Assembly (NCBI GenBank): GCA_030625085.1
Contig: DAOURK010000010.1
Location: 1-60,323 of the forward strand
Source: Pseudomonadota bacterium
Lineage (GTDB): Bacteria > SZUA-182 > DTGQ01
Direction of reading: 5' to 3'
Length of the DNA stretch: 60,323 nucleotides
Below are positions 961-38,568 of the stretch, one piece after another. Every line of letters begins with the position of its first letter. Position 1 is the first letter of the stretch. Below the pieces are notes generated by a model, which saw nothing but the letters and a program-made list of their open reading frames with translations, had not been told where the DNA came from and made no database searches. The translations under genes and the position numbers were made by a program.

Positions 961-982
961 TTTTTTTTAATGGGATTCATAG

Positions 983-1106
983 ATGACTCTGTTTGATTTA
1001 GTCCAAAATTGAGTGTTTTTTGCGAAAAGAGCACTCATAACATTTTGTTTTTATTAAAGTACAATTTTGGCAATTTTATAAAATCATAGTAAATCAACGG
1101 AGTCAT
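983..1106 (+). repeat. MITE-like element, copy 1
   Basis: A 124-bp non-coding element bounded by imperfect terminal inverted repeats (left end ATGACTCTG(T)TTGATTTA, right end TAAATCAACGGAGTCAT). Inside is a hairpin with arms TGAGTG and CACTCA around a T-run, GCG and A-run core. Two further copies lie at 6429-6551 (same orientation) and 15941-16063 (inverted), differing at only a few positions. It has no transposase. Copies 2 and 3 are flanked by TA dinucleotides, which suggests mobilisation in trans by an IS630/Tc1-type transposase (inference). Copy 1 lies between nrdR and the acylphosphatase gene. Confidence 0.85.
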
Positions 1107-1213
1107 ATATATAGGGGCTCAATTGATATATATATAAAGAGAAAGGGAAACCAGGAAGTTGTTTAAAGCTTATTGAGCGAATGTAATGGTCCCTGGTATA
1201 AGGAATAGTAAAC

Positions 1214-6359: not shown

Positions 6360-6375
6360 TGGCATATAAATTGCT
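6360..6375 (+). promoter_or_regulatory. Sigma-54-type (-24/-12) promoter upstream of lpxC
   Basis: The sequence TGGCATATAAATTGCT matches the sigma-54 consensus (TGGCAYR-N4-TTGCW) exactly, with GG and GC separated by 10 bases. Transcription would begin near 6386. No gene starts before lpxC at 6604, and the MITE-like copy 2 lies between them. The inverted repeats at 6191-6218 and 6247-6270 are at distances typical of upstream activator sites. Confidence 0.5.
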
Positions 6376-6428: not shown

Positions 6429-6551
6429 ATGACGCTGTTGATTTAGTACAAAACTGAGTATTTTTTGCGAAAAGAGCACTCATAACATTTTGTTTTTATT
6501 AAACTACAATTTTGGTAATTTTATAAAATCATAGTAAATCAACTGAGTCAT
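6429..6551 (+). repeat. MITE-like element, copy 2
   Basis: A 123-bp copy of the element at 983-1106, with ends ATGACGCTGTTGATTTA and TAAATCAACTGAGTCAT and the same internal hairpin. TA flanks both ends, so the outermost symmetry extends to TTAATGAC/GTCATTAA. It ends 52 bp before the lpxC start codon and would be part of any transcript from the promoter at 6360. Confidence 0.85.
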
Positions 6552-6603
6552 TAATAGCGCGAAAATTGAATGAGAATTATAAAATAAATAATAGGATAAA
6601 GGG

Positions 6604-12791: not shown

Positions 12792-15700
12792 TTAATCCTT
12801 ACTATACAATAAATATCCTTCCCCTTTTTTAATAACAAAATTCTGACCGCACTGCTGGTCAAAAAAATCGTAAACAGATTCCCATTTTCCTGAAAACTTG
12901 TTCAGTTTTTGCATTTTACTCAGATTGTTTACGCCGGGGAGTTTTTTTAATTTTCCAAGGATTTTAAATGAAGAAGATTGTTCCTCATCCTTTACAGGAA
13001 AAGAAATCCAGTGAACAGCCCCTTCCTTTAATTCATAGCCAAGTTGATGTAATATTACCTCCAAGGGGAAATAGTAAGATGTTCTAAAATCTACACAGAG
13101 TTTATCTTCCTGTAAATATAATAAATAGCCTCGATTATCTGCTATGGTAAAAGGGTCAATTACCATATCTGATTGCCAATAAGATATTTGGGTGGGGTTT
13201 TCCTGCCTGAGAGAATGGACTTTTCCCGTAGAATCAATTGCTTTGATTAAATTATCCGACGCTAAATATTCAGGGGGAACCTTCCCTGGGTAACCAAAAA
13301 GGTTTAGCCCTGCTTTTAAATCAATAGTTGTGCATTTTTCAATTTGTAAGGATTTATATTTTTGAATTTTTTTTCTTTCATTACTGAGAAAGGTAAGATC
13401 AAAGAACCCCGAGGGTAATCCTTTTGGAATACGGAACAGGGCAACGTTGGGATCTCGATTCGGATCTTGGAGATCCAAGATTTGATTGGGGTCCGCCGGA
13501 TTGAGAAGAGGAAGGTTTCTAGGGGCGGAATAAATATGGAGCATATCACTTTGTTCCCCAATATAGATCTGGTTTTGAGTAGCTGAAACAGCACTAGTTC
13601 CTCGTGGAATAGCTAAACTGTTTAAAATGATTGGGTATGAAGGGATAGATATATCTATGATCCATATTCCATAACCAGTACCGGCTGCATATAAAAAGTC
13701 ATCCCAAATTGAACACGCTACTAAGTAGTTATCGTTAATAATTTCCATCCTTTCAATAATTTCCGGATCTGTGTTTTCTTCATGTATATTTGTTTTTACT
13801 ACTGTAATGCTGCTATAACTTCCATCTATTAAATAAGCATAATCCCCTTTTACTCCTACATCAACAAAGGTGCGACCAACATTTTTATAAGAATTTTTTA
13901 CTGGAGCTTTAGGCTTGGATACATCGACAATCCCAAAATAGTACGTCCCATCGGCAAGATAGGCGAATACTTTATCTTCGGGATAATGGGGATAATCTTC
14001 TACCCATATATTTTGGTTACTTATTGAGTCCGTAGAGAAGCTTCCAAGCCCATCGGGAAGCTCCAACAGCGATTTAATTCGGAAAATCTCTAGTCCCCGG
14101 GTTCGTCTAAACATATAGAGGCAATTATTATTTATCCTTATTGATTTAATTTTATCAGGAGGAGCATTTGGATCTTTTAGTGGTATTTTGATTTCATTCA
14201 CCCAGGAGGGTTTTTCTTGATTATTGGAATTATCAAATATACATAAAGTGGTCTCATTGGCTAAATATAATCCATTCTCATATAAACAGCAATCCAAAAC
14301 ATTAACAGAATCCTCATAAGGATCCTCTAACATAAGATCTGATTTTTCTAAAGAATAACTAAGGCGAGGGGCCCATGGATCTTGTATATCAACAATTTTT
14401 AACCCTGACTCCCCAGTAGACACATAGGCTTGATTTTCTGAAAGAGTTATGTTCTCAATGTTTCCCTTCAAAGCTAAATGCCCGATAGAGGGATGGTTCA
14501 TCAAGGGTTGAATATCTGCCAAAGCAAAGCCGTTATTGCCATTGGCAATAAAGACATATTTACCCTGGGCAGGTTCAATTTCTATAAACTCCGCCTCTCC
14601 ATTAGTAGAAAGCTGATGCATAAAAGCAGGGGCTGAGGGCAATGAGATATCAATCAAATCCAGGCCATGTTCACCGGCAGCCACCACAGCAAGATTGTTC
14701 CGGATAGTTATTGACTCTCTATCGGCAGCCAAGGGTAGTCGATGTGAAATTGTAGGCACTTGTGGATTTCCCATATCCACCACATAAAGACCATATTGAT
14801 TATCGAGCACATAGAGATATTCATTTTTAACCTTCACGTCACAAATAGAAGAATAATATAAATTATTTGGGTCCTCCTGAAAAAATTTGTTGTTCAAAGG
14901 GCGATTGGGATCGTTCACCCGACTTACTGAATCTCCTTCCCTTTTAAACATAACGACTGAATCACCATTAGCGATATAGAGATATTGTTCTTGAGTAAGA
15001 GGATGAAGCATAATATCCAGATTAAGGGGAGTTGACATACCCGGTATAGGTAATTTAGATTTTTGTTCAAGTTGGCTCCCGTCCCAACTATAAATAAGTA
15101 AACCATCCTCCAAGGAGGTAAGATAAATTGTGTAGATCTCATTCCCCTGAAAATCCGTGTCAGCCTCTACGTAAACTGCCCAAGCTAAGTTCTCAGGTTG
15201 AAGGGCTATATATTCTGGTGATGACGGTTGGGAAATGTTTAATACCCAAAGTCCATTAGGTGTATCAGTAATAAAAAGATAATTGCCTAAGACTTGAATG
15301 TCACGTAGAGTGATTGATTTAATTTCTTGTGTGCTGCTTTGGAATGAATCGAATATGCCGGTTATTTGGGGATTGTTGGGGTCACTTATGTTGATAATTG
15401 AAATTTTGGAGTCATCCGTTATGGCATATACGTATGGATCTTGAAAATCGAGGGCTGTCACTACAGAGTTATTTTCTGTTAATAAGGTACTTTTTATATA
15501 AGGAAGAGACTGGGAAAGAATGATTCGAGAAATCTGATCAAGATTTTCACCTCTCACTTCGATTAAATGATCATCGGTGTTGACTAACTGATTGGGATGC
15601 ACGGTTTGTATGTTAGGTGTAAAATTTTGTGCTTGAACATTTTGACCCCAAAAGGAACAAAAAACAAAAGGGGATAAAGGGGATAATAGAAAGAACAAAA

Positions 15701-15809
15701 AGATAAAAGAGATAAATGGAATCAGTTTAAACGAGATAGTGACTGCGCGTTTTTTTTCAATTTGAGGTGATACCCCATTATAGGATGATACATTAGGCCA
15801 TAATTCCAT
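12792..15809 (-). CDS. Large exported LVIVD-repeat (beta-propeller-like) protein
   Basis: A 1005-aa protein of unknown exact role, probably at the cell surface or secreted. Seen: a long N-terminal region with a hydrophobic segment at about 28-55 (signal peptide or anchor); an IPT/TIG-like opening (HPNQLVNTDDHLIEVRGENL); then many degenerate blades of the LVIVD type, in which short units read xYAYVADGxxGLxIVDIS followed by a proline-rich PxxPxxxxxL (for example SGLKIVDIQDPWAPRLSYSL and GIWIIDISIPSYPIILNSL). From about residue 840 a different C-terminal domain follows, starting IDLKAGLNLFGYPGKVP and ending at a short Gly-rich ENFVIKKGEGYLLYSK-like block. A sigma-54-type promoter lies about 95 bp upstream. 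A scrap of a related gene lies at 16.2 kb. No Shine-Dalgarno is evident before the ATG chosen. Confidence 0.8.
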   Translation of the reverse strand: MELWPNVSSYNGVSPQIEKKRAVTISFKLIPFISFIFLFFLLSPLSPFVFCSFWGQNVQAQNFTPNIQTVHPNQLVNTDDHLIEVRGENLDQISRIILSQSLPYIKSTLLTENNSVVTALDFQDPYVYAITDDSKISIINISDPNNPQITGIFDSFQSSTQEIKSITLRDIQVLGNYLFITDTPNGLWVLNISQPSSPEYIALQPENLAWAVYVEADTDFQGNEIYTIYLTSLEDGLLIYSWDGSQLEQKSKLPIPGMSTPLNLDIMLHPLTQEQYLYIANGDSVVMFKREGDSVSRVNDPNRPLNNKFFQEDPNNLYYSSICDVKVKNEYLYVLDNQYGLYVVDMGNPQVPTISHRLPLAADRESITIRNNLAVVAAGEHGLDLIDISLPSAPAFMHQLSTNGEAEFIEIEPAQGKYVFIANGNNGFALADIQPLMNHPSIGHLALKGNIENITLSENQAYVSTGESGLKIVDIQDPWAPRLSYSLEKSDLMLEDPYEDSVNVLDCCLYENGLYLANETTLCIFDNSNNQEKPSWVNEIKIPLKDPNAPPDKIKSIRINNNCLYMFRRTRGLEIFRIKSLLELPDGLGSFSTDSISNQNIWVEDYPHYPEDKVFAYLADGTYYFGIVDVSKPKAPVKNSYKNVGRTFVDVGVKGDYAYLIDGSYSSITVVKTNIHEENTDPEIIERMEIINDNYLVACSIWDDFLYAAGTGYGIWIIDISIPSYPIILNSLAIPRGTSAVSATQNQIYIGEQSDMLHIYSAPRNLPLLNPADPNQILDLQDPNRDPNVALFRIPKGLPSGFFDLTFLSNERKKIQKYKSLQIEKCTTIDLKAGLNLFGYPGKVPPEYLASDNLIKAIDSTGKVHSLRQENPTQISYWQSDMVIDPFTIADNRGYLLYLQEDKLCVDFRTSYYFPLEVILHQLGYELKEGAVHWISFPVKDEEQSSSFKILGKLKKLPGVNNLSKMQKLNKFSGKWESVYDFFDQQCGQNFVIKKGEGYLLYSKD

Positions 15810-15902
15810 TTTTTAATAAGAACAAACATCATCAGCTTAAAATAAATTAATAAAATTATATAGCTTGTTGATTTTCTGTACTTCTTTTACTTAGATAAAC
15901 GT

Positions 15903-15918
15903 ATGCAAAATAAATGCC
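15903..15918 (-). promoter_or_regulatory. Sigma-54-type promoter for the LVIVD-repeat gene
   Basis: On the minus strand the sequence reads AGGCATTTATTTTGCATA, with GG (15918-15917) and GC (15906-15905) exactly 10 bases apart. The GGCATTTATTTTGCAT core is identical, base for base, to the promoter at 35244-35259. The first consensus base (T of TGGCA) is A here. Transcription would start near 15893, about 85 nt before the gene. Confidence 0.6.
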
Positions 15919-15940
15919 TAATGAATACATATGCCTATAT

Positions 15941-16063
15941 ATGACTCCGTTGATTTACTATGATTTTATAAAATTGCCAAAATTGTACTTTAATAAAAAC
16001 ATAATCTTATGAGTGCTCTTTTCGCAAAAAATACACAATTTTGGACTAAATCAACAGAGTCAT
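15941..16063 (-). repeat. MITE-like element, copy 3 (inverted)
   Basis: A 123-bp copy of the element at 983-1106, in the opposite orientation, with ends ATGACTCCGTTGATTTA and TAAATCAACAGAGTCAT. TATA-like bases flank it on both sides. It lies 23 bp upstream of the sigma-54-type promoter of the LVIVD gene, so it separates that promoter from any original upstream activator sites. Confidence 0.85.
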
Positions 16064-16143
16064 ATATGAGATAAAAAAATATATAAAGCTCTAAAATAAC
16101 TAGCCCTTTAGCTTCTCAGCGCAAATACATGCAATGGAATTAG

Positions 16144-16210
16144 CTAAACATTCAGACTCCCTAGCTCCCAAGAGGTAAGATAAATTGTGTAGATCTCATT
16201 CGCCTTAGAA
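16144..16210 (-). pseudogene. Scrap of a second LVIVD-type gene
   Basis: About 40 bases (16165-16205) are nearly identical to 15107-15148 inside the neighbouring LVIVD gene. On the minus strand they encode NEIYTIYLTSWELGSLNV, against NEIYTIYLTSLEDGLLIY in the intact gene. The open frame continues from 16144 to 16416 but its N-terminal 70 residues resemble nothing I recognise. I read it as the debris of a tandem duplicate. It could also be a short ectopic copy from repair. Confidence 0.6.
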
Positions 16211-16428
16211 CATAAAGGTACAAAGAATACCAAGGGATGAAAACTATAGTGATATAAAAAATTAATTCCTTTCTTTATGTTTTTTTGTGCTTTAAAATAT
16301 ATCAATCCCTGATTGATAAGTCGGCATAGGGGCTGAAAGGTTAAGTAATTAGTTAACTCCGAGGGAGGAATGAAAAAGGTATGAATTTTATTTCCTACGT
16401 ATGCAATAAAATACATAAAATTAAAAAG

Positions 16429-17199
16429 TTAGGCCATAACTCTACATTCCCCAACATATTCCTCTAAAATTTTTTTAAATTCCATCATTTGATCATTATC
16501 ATAAGGAGATACGCTCCTCAAATCAGGATCTAAAGTATTTTTGGGGTTAAAAGCTTGCAAAACAAATTTCTGGACTCCCTCTAATTGGATGGCCAGATCC
16601 TTAATATCTTTTTCTTTAATCAATGTGGGGCACACCGTCATCCTCAATTCATACCCAATTTCTGATTGAGCTAAAATGGCCAGACTTCTTTTGATATGAG
16701 ATACAGAAACAGGTATTCCCACACAGCGGCTGTAACGAATATCATCTAAGGGGGCTTTCACATCCATGGCTACATAATCAATAAGACCATCATCGAGAAG
16801 TGAGGCGAGCATATCAGGTTTGGTGCCGTTGGTGTCTAATTTTACAAGAAAAGACAATTTTCGAAAAAATTTTATTAAATCAGGCAATTGTGAATAAAGA
16901 CAGGGCTCTCCTCCTGAAATAACTATTCCGTCAATCCACCCGACAAATTCCTGTAAGCGGCTTTCTATCATTTGTTGAGGGATTGTAGGAAAAGAATGCG
17001 GCTTCAATACCAGTCCATGATTATGGCAGTAAGGACAGCGAAGATTACATCCCGATAAAAAAAATACTGACGAAATTTTGCCGAACCAGTCAAGAAAGGA
17101 AGTTTCATAAAATCCTTTGATTTGTCCGACGGAACAAGAATCAATTGTTTTCATAGTGTCGCTTTGTTTCATCGACTGCAGCGCTTCGAGCTTCATCAA
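16429..17199 (-). CDS. nrdG: Anaerobic ribonucleotide reductase activating protein (radical SAM)
   Basis: NrdG uses S-adenosylmethionine and a [4Fe-4S] cluster to install the glycyl radical on NrdD. Seen: the radical-SAM motif LSGCNLRCPYCHNHGLV (Cys triad CxxxCxxC), then the VISGGEPCLY motif, the KLDTNGTKPD strand and the later VAMDVKAP block typical of this subfamily. Length is 256 aa from the first ATG; translation could begin at either of two in-frame downstream ATG codons, the last being residue 16 (MKTIDSC, 17154), since no strong Shine-Dalgarno decides it. Its start overlaps the upstream thioredoxin-like gene, so nrdD, that gene and nrdG form one operon. Confidence 0.93.
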   Translation of the reverse strand: MMKLEALQSMKQSDTMKTIDSCSVGQIKGFYETSFLDWFGKISSVFFLSGCNLRCPYCHNHGLVLKPHSFPTIPQQMIESRLQEFVGWIDGIVISGGEPCLYSQLPDLIKFFRKLSFLVKLDTNGTKPDMLASLLDDGLIDYVAMDVKAPLDDIRYSRCVGIPVSVSHIKRSLAILAQSEIGYELRMTVCPTLIKEKDIKDLAIQLEGVQKFVLQAFNPKNTLDPDLRSVSPYDNDQMMEFKKILEEYVGECRVMA

Positions 17200-34507: not shown

Positions 34508-35137
34508 TTAATTCATGATTGAACAATAGATGGTGTTGTTCTCACTGCCCTTAGAACAATTCAACATGTGGGCAGCATTTTTGATTAATTCATCAATTAC
34601 GCGCGCATCTGTAGGGTAAGAGGTGATTCCAATACTGACCGAGTTGCCTTTTTCGATATTATTTATTTCACCACTGGAAAAAGCAAATAATATTTGATCC
34701 TTTAATCGTTCAGATAAACAGACAGCACCTTCAACACTTGTTTCCGGCAAAATTAAAGCTAAAACATCTTGGTTATATAAAGAAAGTATATCCGTATCGC
34801 GAAGATTAGCCTTGATAAATTCACCCAATTTTTTTATAAGTACATTTTTTCTTTCATCGGGAATATCAGTCATATCATTTTCCATCACCTTATCTTCTGC
34901 AAAAGTATCTACATTGAGTAAAACCAATGAAAGAAATTGGTTATACCGTTTAGCTCTTTTCATTTCCTCATCAAGGCGGATGTTCAGATATCGAGTGTTA
35001 TAGAGTCGTATGTTTTCATCGAAGAAGACGTCATTCGGTGGATTATCATCCGGTTTTTTTAAAGAATTGTTGGTGATATTATTAAGTTTTAATTTCAATT
35101 TTGCGTTCTCTTTTTTCAAGAGATCAAATTCGCTCAT
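34508..35137 (-). CDS. Degenerate GGDEF-domain protein
   Basis: A 209-aa protein with a GGDEF fold but a broken active site. Seen: residues 1-20 form a coiled-coil start; the domain runs from about 43 to 205, with the conserved DENIRLYNTRYLNIRLDEEMKRA opening and VSIGITSYPTDA near the end. The signature YGGDEF position reads YNQDVL (residues 121-126), so guanylate-cyclase activity should be lost; the metal-site Asp of the LLNVDTF strand (D77) is kept. It could bind c-di-GMP or a protein partner instead. A sigma-54-type promoter with upstream palindromes stands in front of it. Confidence 0.85.
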   Translation of the reverse strand: MSEFDLLKKENAKLKLKLNNITNNSLKKPDDNPPNDVFFDENIRLYNTRYLNIRLDEEMKRAKRYNQFLSLVLLNVDTFAEDKVMENDMTDIPDERKNVLIKKLGEFIKANLRDTDILSLYNQDVLALILPETSVEGAVCLSERLKDQILFAFSSGEINNIEKGNSVSIGITSYPTDARVIDELIKNAAHMLNCSKGSENNTIYCSIMN

Positions 35138-35243
35138 ATTTATTTTATGCCCCCCTAACCCTTAAATATTTAGATTTAATAGTTATCAAAGTTGAAATAG
35201 CTAAATCTTTTATTAGAGTAATATGCGTTATTTTTAATATTCA

Positions 35244-35259
35244 TGCAAAATAAATGCCA
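35244..35259 (-). promoter_or_regulatory. Sigma-54-type (-24/-12) promoter for the degenerate GGDEF gene
   Basis: On the minus strand TGGCATTTATTTTGCA fits the TGGCA-N6-TTGC pattern with the GG/GC elements exactly 10 bases apart. Transcription would begin near 35233, about 95 nt before the GGDEF gene. The 16 bases GGCATTTATTTTGCAT recur in front of the LVIVD gene at 15.9 kb. Confidence 0.7.
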
Positions 35260-35376
35260 TTTTTTTTCTATTAATTCTTTTTTTTTAAAAACTATAGCAA
35301 CTTTTTGATTTAACGCAAAAAAAAGAAGATGTTTTTTTTTTCTACTTTGAGATGAGAAAAATAGAAATTATTTAAA

Positions 35377-35412
35377 ATGAAGGTTCCTTCATAATTATGA
35401 AAGTAATTTCAT
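35377..35412. promoter_or_regulatory. Tandem 16-bp palindromes, probable activator-binding sites
   Basis: ATGAAGGTTCCTTCAT (35377-35392) and ATGAAAGTAATTTCAT (35397-35412). Both are inverted repeats of ATGAAR...YTTCAT; their centres are 20 bp apart, two turns of DNA, on the same face. They lie about 120-155 bp upstream of the sigma-54 promoter at 35244 and directly after the stop codon of the NtrC-type activator gene. Binding by that activator is the natural inference. Confidence 0.65.
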
Positions 35413-35414
35413 AG

Positions 35415-36788
35415 TTATTCTCGAATCTGATATTCTTTAATCTTGCTTAATAAAGATCGATAACTTACCTGAAGTAATTTGGCAGCCTGGATTCGATTCC
35501 AATTGGTCTTACCCAAAACACTTTTGATAGTGGCTTTTTCCGCTTTTTGAACAGCCAGGCGGCTAACTTCTTTTAAGGGAACAATTTTGGTATTTTTATA
35601 AACTACTTTTCCCCCTACAACATCATGGGGGATAACAGTATAGACAATTTCCTCATTTCCAAGGACGATAATTTTTTTTATGAGATTTTCCAACTCACGA
35701 ATATTTCCGGGCCAATCATAATTCATAAAAAGATTAATGGTCTGAGGAGAAATTGAGGTAACGTTTTTCCCATACAAATTGGTATACTTTTTTAAAAAAA
35801 ATTCATTTAAAAGAAAGATATCTTCTTTATGTTCCCGTAAAGGGGGTACGAAGATGGTTACTTCATTTAATCGATAAAATAGATCTTCCCGGAAGCTGCC
35901 ATTACGAATTCCTTCTTCCAGATCTCGGTTAGTGGCTACAATAATACGCACATCAACCTTTACACTTTTTTTCCCGCCAAGACGGTTGAATTCTTTTTCT
36001 TCTAAAACCTGCAATAATTTGGCTTGCAGGGAAGGCGGCATCTCGCCGATTTCGTCTAAAAAAATGGTCCCTTCATTAGCAAATTCAAAACGTCCTGGCT
36101 TTGCCCTTTGGGCGCCGGTAAAAGCTCCTCTTTCATACCCAAAGAGTTCGGACTCAAGAAGATTTTCGGGCAAGGTAGCACAATTGACCTTTATGAACGG
36201 TTTATCTTTTCGATCGGCCAGGTTGTGGATAGCTCGAGTAACCAGTTCTTTTCCCGTACCACTTTCTCCCCGCACTAAAATTGTTAGTTCTGTACCGGCC
36301 ACTTGCTCTATCATTTTTTTTATATTGAGAATCTGGTTGCTGTCTCCTATAAAATTTCCAAATTCGAGTTTAGCCTTTAGTTTTTTCTTGAGTGGCATAT
36401 TGTCAGAGGTAATAGCCATACGTTCCAGATTTTTCTTGATAGTGGCTTTTAATTCTTCTTTATCAAATGGCTTGGTAACAAAGTCATCAGCTCCGGCTCG
36501 CATAGCATTAACTATTGTTTGGGTTTCACCATGAGCAGAAAGCATAATAATGCCTATTCGTTTTGAGATGACCTTCATTCTTCCTAATAGATCGATTCCA
36601 TTGATGTCAGGCATACCAATATCCAGCAATATTAAATCAGGATGGTCATTTTTTAATATTTCTACGGCTGTTTTTCCATCCTCAGCTGAAAAGACACTAT
36701 ACCCGGCGTCAGATATTGTCTCGGTTAGTATCCAAGATAATTCCGGATCATCATCAACCAACAAAATTTTTATTTTATTCCCCTTCAT
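35415..36788 (-). CDS. NtrC-family sigma-54-dependent response regulator
   Basis: A 457-aa enhancer-binding transcription activator. Seen: receiver domain 1-120 with the phospho-acceptor Asp56 (LLDIGMP) and the acidic pocket VDDDPE; sigma-54-interaction AAA+ domain about 145-380, with Walker A GESGTGKE (174-181), the GAFTGA sigma-54 contact loop (221-226) and Walker B TIFLDEIG; and a Fis-type helix-turn-helix at the C-terminus (NWNRIQAAKLLQVSYRSL). The kinase gene lies 71 bp upstream on the same strand. Palindromes that fit its dimer follow the stop codon, so it probably controls the adjacent GGDEF gene. Confidence 0.95.
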   Translation of the reverse strand: MKGNKIKILLVDDDPELSWILTETISDAGYSVFSAEDGKTAVEILKNDHPDLILLDIGMPDINGIDLLGRMKVISKRIGIIMLSAHGETQTIVNAMRAGADDFVTKPFDKEELKATIKKNLERMAITSDNMPLKKKLKAKLEFGNFIGDSNQILNIKKMIEQVAGTELTILVRGESGTGKELVTRAIHNLADRKDKPFIKVNCATLPENLLESELFGYERGAFTGAQRAKPGRFEFANEGTIFLDEIGEMPPSLQAKLLQVLEEKEFNRLGGKKSVKVDVRIIVATNRDLEEGIRNGSFREDLFYRLNEVTIFVPPLREHKEDIFLLNEFFLKKYTNLYGKNVTSISPQTINLFMNYDWPGNIRELENLIKKIIVLGNEEIVYTVIPHDVVGGKVVYKNTKIVPLKEVSRLAVQKAEKATIKSVLGKTNWNRIQAAKLLQVSYRSLLSKIKEYQIRE

Positions 36789-36859: not shown

Positions 36860-38140
36860 TTACTGAACAGGAATATATAATTCAAAAGTAGTCCCTTTAT
36901 TTACTTCACCATGAATCTTGATACGGCCGTTATGAGATTGAATTATTCTCTTAACAGTGGCTAATCCTAGACCTGTCCCGGATTTTTTAGTGGTATAAAA
37001 ATGTTCGAACATCTTTTTTTTGACCTTTGTAGAGATACCAATTCCCGTATCACAAAATTTTATTAGTATATAATCTTTTTTCGTATCTTTTGGAGAAGAA
37101 AAATTTTTCGTTAAAATTTTTAGTTCTCCTCCCTGGGGCATGGACTCAATAGCATTGGTAATAATATTTAAAAAGACCTCTTCGATTCGTTTTTCGTTAA
37201 TATAAACAGGTGTCAGATCCTGGGCCAATTCACAAATTAAAGAAATATTATTCTGGTATAGATCATTTTTTAAAAATGTTAATGCCTGATCCAAGATGTT
37301 GTTTACACCAACTATTTTATTTTGGGATCCAATTGGATTAGAGAAACTTAATAGTTCTTCCATCCGAAAAATTAACCGAGAGACGTTGTTGTTTAAGATT
37401 TCAAGAGACCTTTTTCGAGAATTATCTTTATCCCAATTGTCTTCCAGATATTGTAAGGATCCTTTGATGTTGGTGATCGGATTTCGAAAACTATGGGTAA
37501 TTTCAGAAATCATTTTGCCCATGGTGATTAATTGAGTAGCTTTGGAGAGACAAGAAGTCTTTTCATATAAAGAGATTATCTCTGAGGCAAGAGTTGATAG
37601 AAATTGCCATTTTTCTTGAAAAATATTTTTGATGCCACTTCCAAAACAAAAAATTCCAAATAATTCATTTTCCATAATTATAGGTATAGATTGGAATGAT
37701 TCACAAGCGAGATCGCCAAATTCATTGCCTTTGAAATAGGTAAGCAGGAACTTGGTAAAATAACCCCTTATTTTTTTTTCGGTAGCTTCCTTGATAAACT
37801 CATTGTTGGTGTCTTCGAGAGAAATATTACATAAATTAAGCTTTTTTAGTGTCTTGTGGGTAACCCCTTGAGCAAATTCCAGGTGTAGTTCTCGAACTTC
37901 ACTATGAAAGGATAAATACAAGAAATAATCGATAGGAACACCCTGTTTTATGAAGCGTAAAGCTTCATTCAGTGCTTCATCCACATCAATCTGTGAACCA
38001 AAAATTCGGGCAATTTTATATAAAACCGATAGTTCTTTGGCTTTAGACTGCAGTTCTTCGTTTTTTTGCTGTAATTCCGGAATATAGTGTTTATTTATAC
38101 TACCCGGGTTTTTTTGTTCGGTGGTTTTTTTTAACGCCAA
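36860..38140 (-). CDS. Soluble GAF-domain sensor histidine kinase
   Basis: The cognate kinase of the downstream NtrC-type regulator. Seen in 426 aa: an N-terminal coiled coil (PELQQKNEELQSKAKEL), a GAF domain at about 45-190, HisKA with His216 in ITHSFRNPITN, and a HATPase domain with DTGIGIS and GTGLGLATV. There is no membrane segment, so the signal is cytoplasmic. I chose the TTG start at 38140 because GGAGGAAGG stands 8 bases before it; a TTG five codons upstream lies inside that Shine-Dalgarno. Confidence 0.9.
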   Translation of the reverse strand: MALKKTTEQKNPGSINKHYIPELQQKNEELQSKAKELSVLYKIARIFGSQIDVDEALNEALRFIKQGVPIDYFLYLSFHSEVRELHLEFAQGVTHKTLKKLNLCNISLEDTNNEFIKEATEKKIRGYFTKFLLTYFKGNEFGDLACESFQSIPIIMENELFGIFCFGSGIKNIFQEKWQFLSTLASEIISLYEKTSCLSKATQLITMGKMISEITHSFRNPITNIKGSLQYLEDNWDKDNSRKRSLEILNNNVSRLIFRMEELLSFSNPIGSQNKIVGVNNILDQALTFLKNDLYQNNISLICELAQDLTPVYINEKRIEEVFLNIITNAIESMPQGGELKILTKNFSSPKDTKKDYILIKFCDTGIGISTKVKKKMFEHFYTTKKSGTGLGLATVKRIIQSHNGRIKIHGEVNKGTTFELYIPVQ

Positions 38141-38568
38141 ACGGCCTTCCTCCAATGGCTAATATTTTGTCAACATGCAATTACTCGAAAAATTTGAAAG
38201 CATGATGAACTGAACTTAAAAAAGCAACTAATACCTATTTAACCTTCTTTAGAGTTTATTGAGGCGATTTTTTTAAATGACTAGTAGATTTCTGTTTGCT
38301 GCTGATTATGAGAATATTTTCCATTCTCTCTTCTTTATGTATGCGAATGTGACAAAATTTACCTACCTGCAAAAATATACAAACTTTTTTCTATTCTAAT
38401 CAAAACTTTGCTTTTTGTCAAGGTCTTATAACTCTTTATCTTTTCTATCGGTAAAAATCGTTGAGAGAATCAGTGTATTCATGCAATAATTTAAAGCTAA
38501 AGAGGCTTTTCTTCAATTGCTTGGGCAGGGAAGAGTATACAAAATGAATGTTTTTAACTAGGATATTA
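38141..38568. other. Intergenic region between kinase and PBP4 genes
   Basis: About 430 bases holding the sigma-70 promoter at 38393-38421 and its long leader. A small hairpin GAGAAT/ATTCTC lies near 38310-38328. No coding region, tRNA or RNA structure is recognised in the rest. Confidence 0.45.
38393..38421 (-). promoter_or_regulatory. Sigma-70-type promoter for the kinase-regulator operon
   Basis: On the minus strand TTGACA (38421-38416) and TAGAAT (38398-38393) are 17 bp apart. The start would be near 38386, giving a leader of about 245 nt before the kinase gene. The kinase and regulator are therefore probably made constitutively while their target uses sigma-54. Confidence 0.65.

Follow-up and report, generated by a model that had tools for sequence, protein, structure and literature searches.

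The genes for a large exported LVIVD-repeat protein and for a GGDEF-like protein, both located in the 60,323-nucleotide stretch of DNA analyzed here (the window), are likely read from enhancer-dependent sigma-54 promoters that share one family of enhancers, which would also serve several other exported proteins of the genome. In the proposed mechanism, RNA polymerase with RpoN would wait at the promoter core, and an NtrC-type activator seated on tandem 18-bp dyads would loop to the core and fire the promoter by ATP hydrolysis; we infer both the occupancy of the enhancers and the activation. In this uncultured bacterium, a set of exported proteins is probably turned on by one activator family.

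Sigma-54 cores, tandem-dyad enhancers and the genes behind them

The initial annotation noted an identical 16-bp sigma-54 core, GGCATTTATTTTGCAT, at 15.9 kb and 35.25 kb of the window. The genome-wide search that it proposed recovered both copies, the second at the position given, and these were the sole two exact copies in the genome of 4,941,573 bases (Table 1). Two more genomic sites matched with one mismatch (none in the reversed control), and loose matching with up to 3 mismatches gave 5 sites against 2.28 expected, an unremarkable count for bare sequence. A strict core pattern, TGGCAYN5TTGCW, had 47 matches in the genome versus one for the control, the same pattern read backwards. The core ends 93 bp before the ATG of the 1005-aa LVIVD ORF at the first site and 105 bp before the 209-aa GGDEF-family ORF at the second.

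Table 1. Positions in the window of the two promoters, their genes and neighboring features
Feature	Position	Strand	Basis
Predicted sigma-54 core, LVIVD promoter, AGGCATTTATTTTGCAT	15903..15918	-	Exact-match search; -24/-12 retained by the orthologues of G001 and G003
Predicted sigma-54 core, GGDEF-family promoter, TGGCATTTATTTTGCAT	35243..35258	-	Exact-match and strict-core search; conserved in G001, G002 and G003
Putative tandem-dyad enhancer, LVIVD promoter	16380..16417		Second-best in window, 21/24; conserved in G003 and G001
Putative tandem-dyad enhancer, GGDEF-family promoter	35376..35413		Best in window, 23/24; conserved in four genomes
1005-aa protein, LVIVD repeats, N-terminal signal-like segment	12792..15809	-	Pfam PF08309, 125.6 bits; translation
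209-aa GGDEF-family protein, degenerate active-site motif YNQDV	34508..35137	-	PF00990, 60.1 bits; four-orthologue alignment
NtrC-type response regulator, GAFTGA motif, Fis HTH	35415..36788	-	Profile search; leading candidate activator
Histidine kinase gene, upstream of regulator, same strand	36860..38155	-	HisKA and HATPase_c; probable partner
121-bp MITE between enhancer and core	15942..16062		Flanked by TATA target duplications (15938-15941, 16063-16066)
46-bp copy of internal LVIVD ORF piece (15108-15153)	16165..16210		89% identical
Second GGCAT half-core without GC element, GGCATATGTATTCAT	15921..15935	-	Sequence

Alignment of the GGDEF promoters from four genomes, our own and its relatives G001, G002 and G003, which together form one family of a small, probably uncultured lineage, revealed a conserved block, TATGAAAnnnnTTTCATAATTATGAAnnnnnnTTCATA, directly after the end of an NtrC-type regulator gene. 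The unit consists of two 18-bp dyads resembling TATGAA-N6-TTCATA and set at a 20-bp step; at the GGDEF promoters the dyads are centered 125–164 bp upstream of the core, and G002 retains one full dyad. Similarly, local alignment of the LVIVD upstream region with those of G003 and G001 gave a distal block, TATGAATTTTATTTCCTA-CG-TATGCAATAAAATACATA, which again contains two dyads at a 20-bp step. These two blocks were the top tandem dyads in a scan of the 60 kb, the next (score 19) being inside the LVIVD ORF, and in G003 and G001 the LVIVD block was likewise the best tandem dyad of its locus (11.4 kb and 7 kb, respectively). Inverted repeats upstream of the core, often in tandem, are typical of NtrC-type enhancers (UAS), and both promoters have them.

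Tandem dyads scoring at least 19 were found in the 550 bp upstream of 9 of the 60 cores of G001 and of only 5 of the 48 cores of our own genome, and most cores of the latter therefore presumably answer to other activators. None occurred in matching downstream segments or in shuffles for either genome. The scan used a motif that had been recognized at the GGDEF promoter, and the only motif-free check was a count of 6-bp inverted repeats, among which TATGAA-N6-TTCATA was the commonest upstream of cores in both our own genome and G001. Exact dyads numbered 11 in our genome, 14 in G001, 5 in G002 and 13 in G003, versus 0, 0, 0 and 1 in the reversed controls. Of these, four in our genome, eight in G001 and seven in G003 had a strict core no more than 250 bp downstream, against an expectation of well under one (binomial P of about 1e-8 or less, with the caveat that tandem copies are not independent). 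Copies of the motif recur 120–300 bp ahead of sigma-54 cores, for the most part in front of genes for exported proteins. Beyond the family the motif was almost missing: in five genomes from the same order or class, 0–1 dyads each were counted, and a close orthologue of the GGDEF gene was found in none of the five. At the level of sequence, these data establish that the enhancer motif exists, that it is conserved and that it is linked to the cores. A shared activator context, one of the two readings proposed for the identical cores, is supported, but by the conserved tandem-dyad enhancers and not by the core.

In our own genome, tandem dyads precede, among others, the GGDEF-like gene, the LVIVD gene and several genes for proteins with signal-peptide-like starts. 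Six promoter pairs of our genome and G001 appeared orthologous as judged from N-termini (GGDEF, LVIVD, L008/L161, L009/L162, L033/L153 and L128/L177). Two further tandem dyads preceded slightly weaker cores: the product of one gene (L224) ends with VPEPTTLFLLSLSLLGLAVLRKRH, a PEP-CTERM, and the other gene codes for an exported protein and shares its contig with one of the two exosortases. The initial annotation had also called for a comparison of core-driven genes with regard to exported functions, and this revealed an excess. With a simple, crude heuristic, signal-like products were called behind cores in 17 of 35 cases in our genome and 18 of 35 in G001 (35/70), versus 7 of 37 window ORFs (P=0.007 for our genome, P=0.001 for both genomes).

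Several groups of products were observed besides. Small secreted Tyr/Gly-rich (YGGLYGG) or similar proteins recurred behind sigma-54 cores or the dyad (L015, L030, L032, L128, L137, L139 and L223, and in G001 L176, L177 and L179). Exported proteins in L213, L215 and L219 had similar C-termini (HFPGxYxIxITAYDxRGG...VxPWWS), which possibly represent an uncharacterized C-terminal domain; two are encoded directly behind dyad-bearing promoters and one by the second gene after such a promoter. Residues about 790–1005 of the LVIVD protein are also common to other exported proteins of the genome, one of which is the 886-aa protein in L215, behind another tandem dyad.

The candidate activator

The regulator encoded next to the GGDEF enhancer is composed of a receiver, an AAA+ domain with the GAFTGA motif, and a Fis HTH. 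We consider it the leading candidate because in four genomes its gene ends right next to the enhancer and its recognition helix (VSYRSLLSKIKEYQI) is identical in all four. On the strength of this position it may well be the activator, a proposal to which we give slightly less than even confidence. Its assignment as an AtoC, PrsR or NtrC equivalog was rejected, as its scores fell below the NCBIfam cut-offs (471 versus 714, 411 versus 502.6 and 410 versus 558.6 bits, respectively). A true PrsR equivalog is present on contig C174 (571.8 bits), and its recognition helix is different. Next to LVIVD, no gene for an activator was seen.

The same promoters could also be served by different activators, with a paralogue of this regulator or the true PrsR binding the LVIVD enhancer, in which case the two genes would not be co-regulated. 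We regard this as a serious possibility. The LVIVD dyads deviate from those of GGDEF at conserved positions (TATGCA...TACATA), and a paralogous activator could therefore bind there. The genome is also rich in sigma-54 activator genes (PF00158 in 38 places, about 30 of them strong), and the PrsR equivalog, the two exosortases and the PEP-CTERM gene behind tandem dyads all fit a role of another regulator. However, the dyad architecture is the same at both promoters (18 bp, 20-bp step), it is the regulator in the window that abuts such an enhancer in four genomes, and a PrsR-type site, TGTAAA-N5-TTTACA, was absent upstream of any core. Returning to a common activator, we tentatively envisage, with some doubt, a single two-component regulator other than PrsR, which would drive a regulon through tandem TATGAA-N6-TTCATA enhancers in an uncultured lineage; the targets would include exported propeller, Ig-like and PEP-CTERM proteins as well as a catalytically dead GGDEF protein, and one target enhancer would have been re-spaced by a MITE.

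With regard to the GGDEF-family protein, the GG(D/E)EF signature of active diguanylate cyclases was not present, and its four orthologues have YN-x-x-V. Because the motif is degenerate in all four, the protein is probably not a diguanylate cyclase, though it is otherwise strongly conserved.

The re-spaced LVIVD promoter and the origin of the repeated core

The gap between enhancer and core of the LVIVD promoter is 461 bp in our genome versus about 153 bp in G001 and G003. It contains a MITE, a short non-coding element with 21-bp inverted ends and target duplications that is present in about 40 copies genome-wide; the MITE and the 46-bp gene fragment together account for about 170 bases of a difference of roughly 306. 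The MITE and other inserted DNA would have stretched the distance, a change that sigma-54 enhancers usually tolerate. Four promoters of D. vulgaris are separated from their UAS by over 300 bp, and for an NtrC enhancer action at 15 kb is described (PMC4641369). Since sigma-54 enhancers act over long distances, the re-spaced promoter is probably still active. It is unlikely that the insertions silenced it by parting enhancer from core: the wide gap relative to that of the relatives and the second, broken GGCAT half-core could be taken as signs of silencing, but the ORF is intact over 1005 aa, core and enhancer are both intact, and the D. vulgaris and NtrC examples cover such distances. The possibility that the MITE carried the promoter or enhancer was rejected, as both are located outside it.

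Family members of this MITE were found at three places in the window (977-1111, 6429-6557 and 15942-16062) with 4-bp TNNA target duplications, and the copy at 6429-6557 is located between a sigma-54 core (6360-6375) and lpxC. Three cores had a MITE within about 60 bp, which is too few to claim an association, and no paper on MITEs in sigma-54 promoters was found. The half-core GGCATATGTATTCAT lies directly beside the MITE and resembles the LVIVD core of G001 minus one base. An AlphaFold model of the LVIVD protein had a mean pLDDT of 49, which is too poor for use, and it suggests only an all-beta repeat body at about 117–761.

The initial annotation would have been refuted by a motif that is common in A+T-rich gaps of the genome without bias toward gene starts, and this did not prove to be the case. 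We found that 43 of the 47 strict cores were outside ORFs of at least 120 aa and 4 were inside, whereas 83% of background positions were inside; a same-strand ORF start was present within 300 bp of 28 of the 47, versus 18% of all positions and 37% of intergenic positions. At both sites of the repeated 16-mer, the GG and GC elements are 10 nt apart in TGGCAY/TTGCW context, except that A, not T, precedes GG in the LVIVD core of our genome. Both cores are intergenic, upstream of a gene and conserved in orthologues (in four genomes for the GGDEF promoter and three for the LVIVD promoter), and the genome has one rpoN (PF04552, 203 bits). Judged from these features, both 16-mers are real -24/-12 sigma-54 promoter cores, and the proposed tie of a large exported protein to the sigma-54 system is upheld. 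It is very improbable that the LVIVD core is a chance match and that another sigma factor transcribes the gene. The gap is A+T-rich, A replaces T ahead of GG, and the count of loose matches is near chance, all of which would fit such a match, but the orthologues retain -24/-12 and the enhancer is conserved. In addition, a sigma-70 promoter was rejected, since no sigma-70-like site was found upstream of LVIVD in 15790-16440, where shuffles gave 4.0. Similarly, no riboswitch or other RNA was detected in the LVIVD upstream gap, the only Rfam matches in the window being three tRNAs.

The identity of the spacer, which had been taken as informative, did not stand as such. Given how the 47 cores use the four bases, chance should produce 1.4 pairs with identity over 15 bases, or 0.5 with identity over 16, in a set of 48 cores; a single base separates 21 pairs of the listed cores, and three identical pairs occur in G001. 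The GGDEF orthologues, whose proteins are 71–74% identical, have TGGCATTTATTTTGCA in G001 and G003 and TGGCATTTAATTTGCA in G002, and the spacer TTTATTT is kept in G001 and G003. The LVIVD orthologues (41–43% identical) retain the core but with different spacers, TGGCACCTGTATTGCAT and TGGCATATATATTGCAT. These orthologous cores and spacers suggest that each promoter has separate ancestry. Recent copying of the core from one gene to the other, although an exact 16-bp identity within 20 kb that is unique in the genome might suggest it, is so improbable that we rejected it, as the identity ends at the core, the GGDEF spacer is old, each LVIVD orthologue has a core of its own with a different spacer and chance alone can account for identical pairs. 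Convergence within a fixed, A+T-rich motif is the best reading of the match, and the orthologue spacers and pair expectation show the exact core identity to be coincidental. Thus, an exact promoter repeat can be a coincidence, and the informative shared element may be hundreds of bases away.

Comparison with known systems

The closest comparison is the PEP-CTERM box and PrsK-PrsR-RpoN system (PMC1569441, Haft et al. 2006; Aquincola pepA, PMC9850573). Both systems combine an enhancer with a sigma-54 core in long upstream gaps, an NtrC-type response regulator with a kinase, and exported, mostly single genes as targets. The genome itself has two exosortases and PrsR, and one tandem-dyad gene (L224) codes for a PEP-CTERM protein. 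However, the dyad described here is TATGAA-N6-TTCATA, whereas the PEP-CTERM box is a 17-nt motif ending with TTTACA, and the distance from motif to core is longer here than the proteobacterial mean of 63 nt for that box. A search for TGTAAA-N5-TTTACA, our own symmetric reading of the 17-nt motif, gave no match of at least 11/12 upstream of any core of our genome or G001, and a PrsR box was therefore rejected; TTTACA was also absent from the LVIVD enhancer. The LVIVD protein ends with KKGEGYLLYSKD and has no PEP-CTERM, and the regulator in the window scores below the PrsR cut-off. Because of the different enhancer and the lack of a PEP-CTERM on the LVIVD protein, we did not assign the system to the PEP-CTERM box/PrsR group.

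The regulator shares with NtrC/AtoC-type response regulators the receiver, the AAA+ domain with GAFTGA, the Fis HTH and tandem dyad enhancers upstream of the core, and differs in that it does not reach the NCBIfam equivalog cut-offs and that the dyad was not found in the literature searched; no report of TATGAA enhancers was found. Control of the bacterial exterior by sigma-54 is an established general trend (Francke et al. 2011, PMC3162934), and the preference of sigma-54 promoters for exported and envelope genes observed here agrees with it. The kind of control is known, and the specific enhancer and regulon were absent from the literature searched. Unlike the general trend, the present analysis defines a specific enhancer motif and its targets in an uncultured lineage. 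The lineage thereby gains a sigma-54 enhancer motif that can be tested, together with a list of exported-protein targets, and the known tie of sigma-54 to the bacterial exterior is extended by an example outside the PrsR box.
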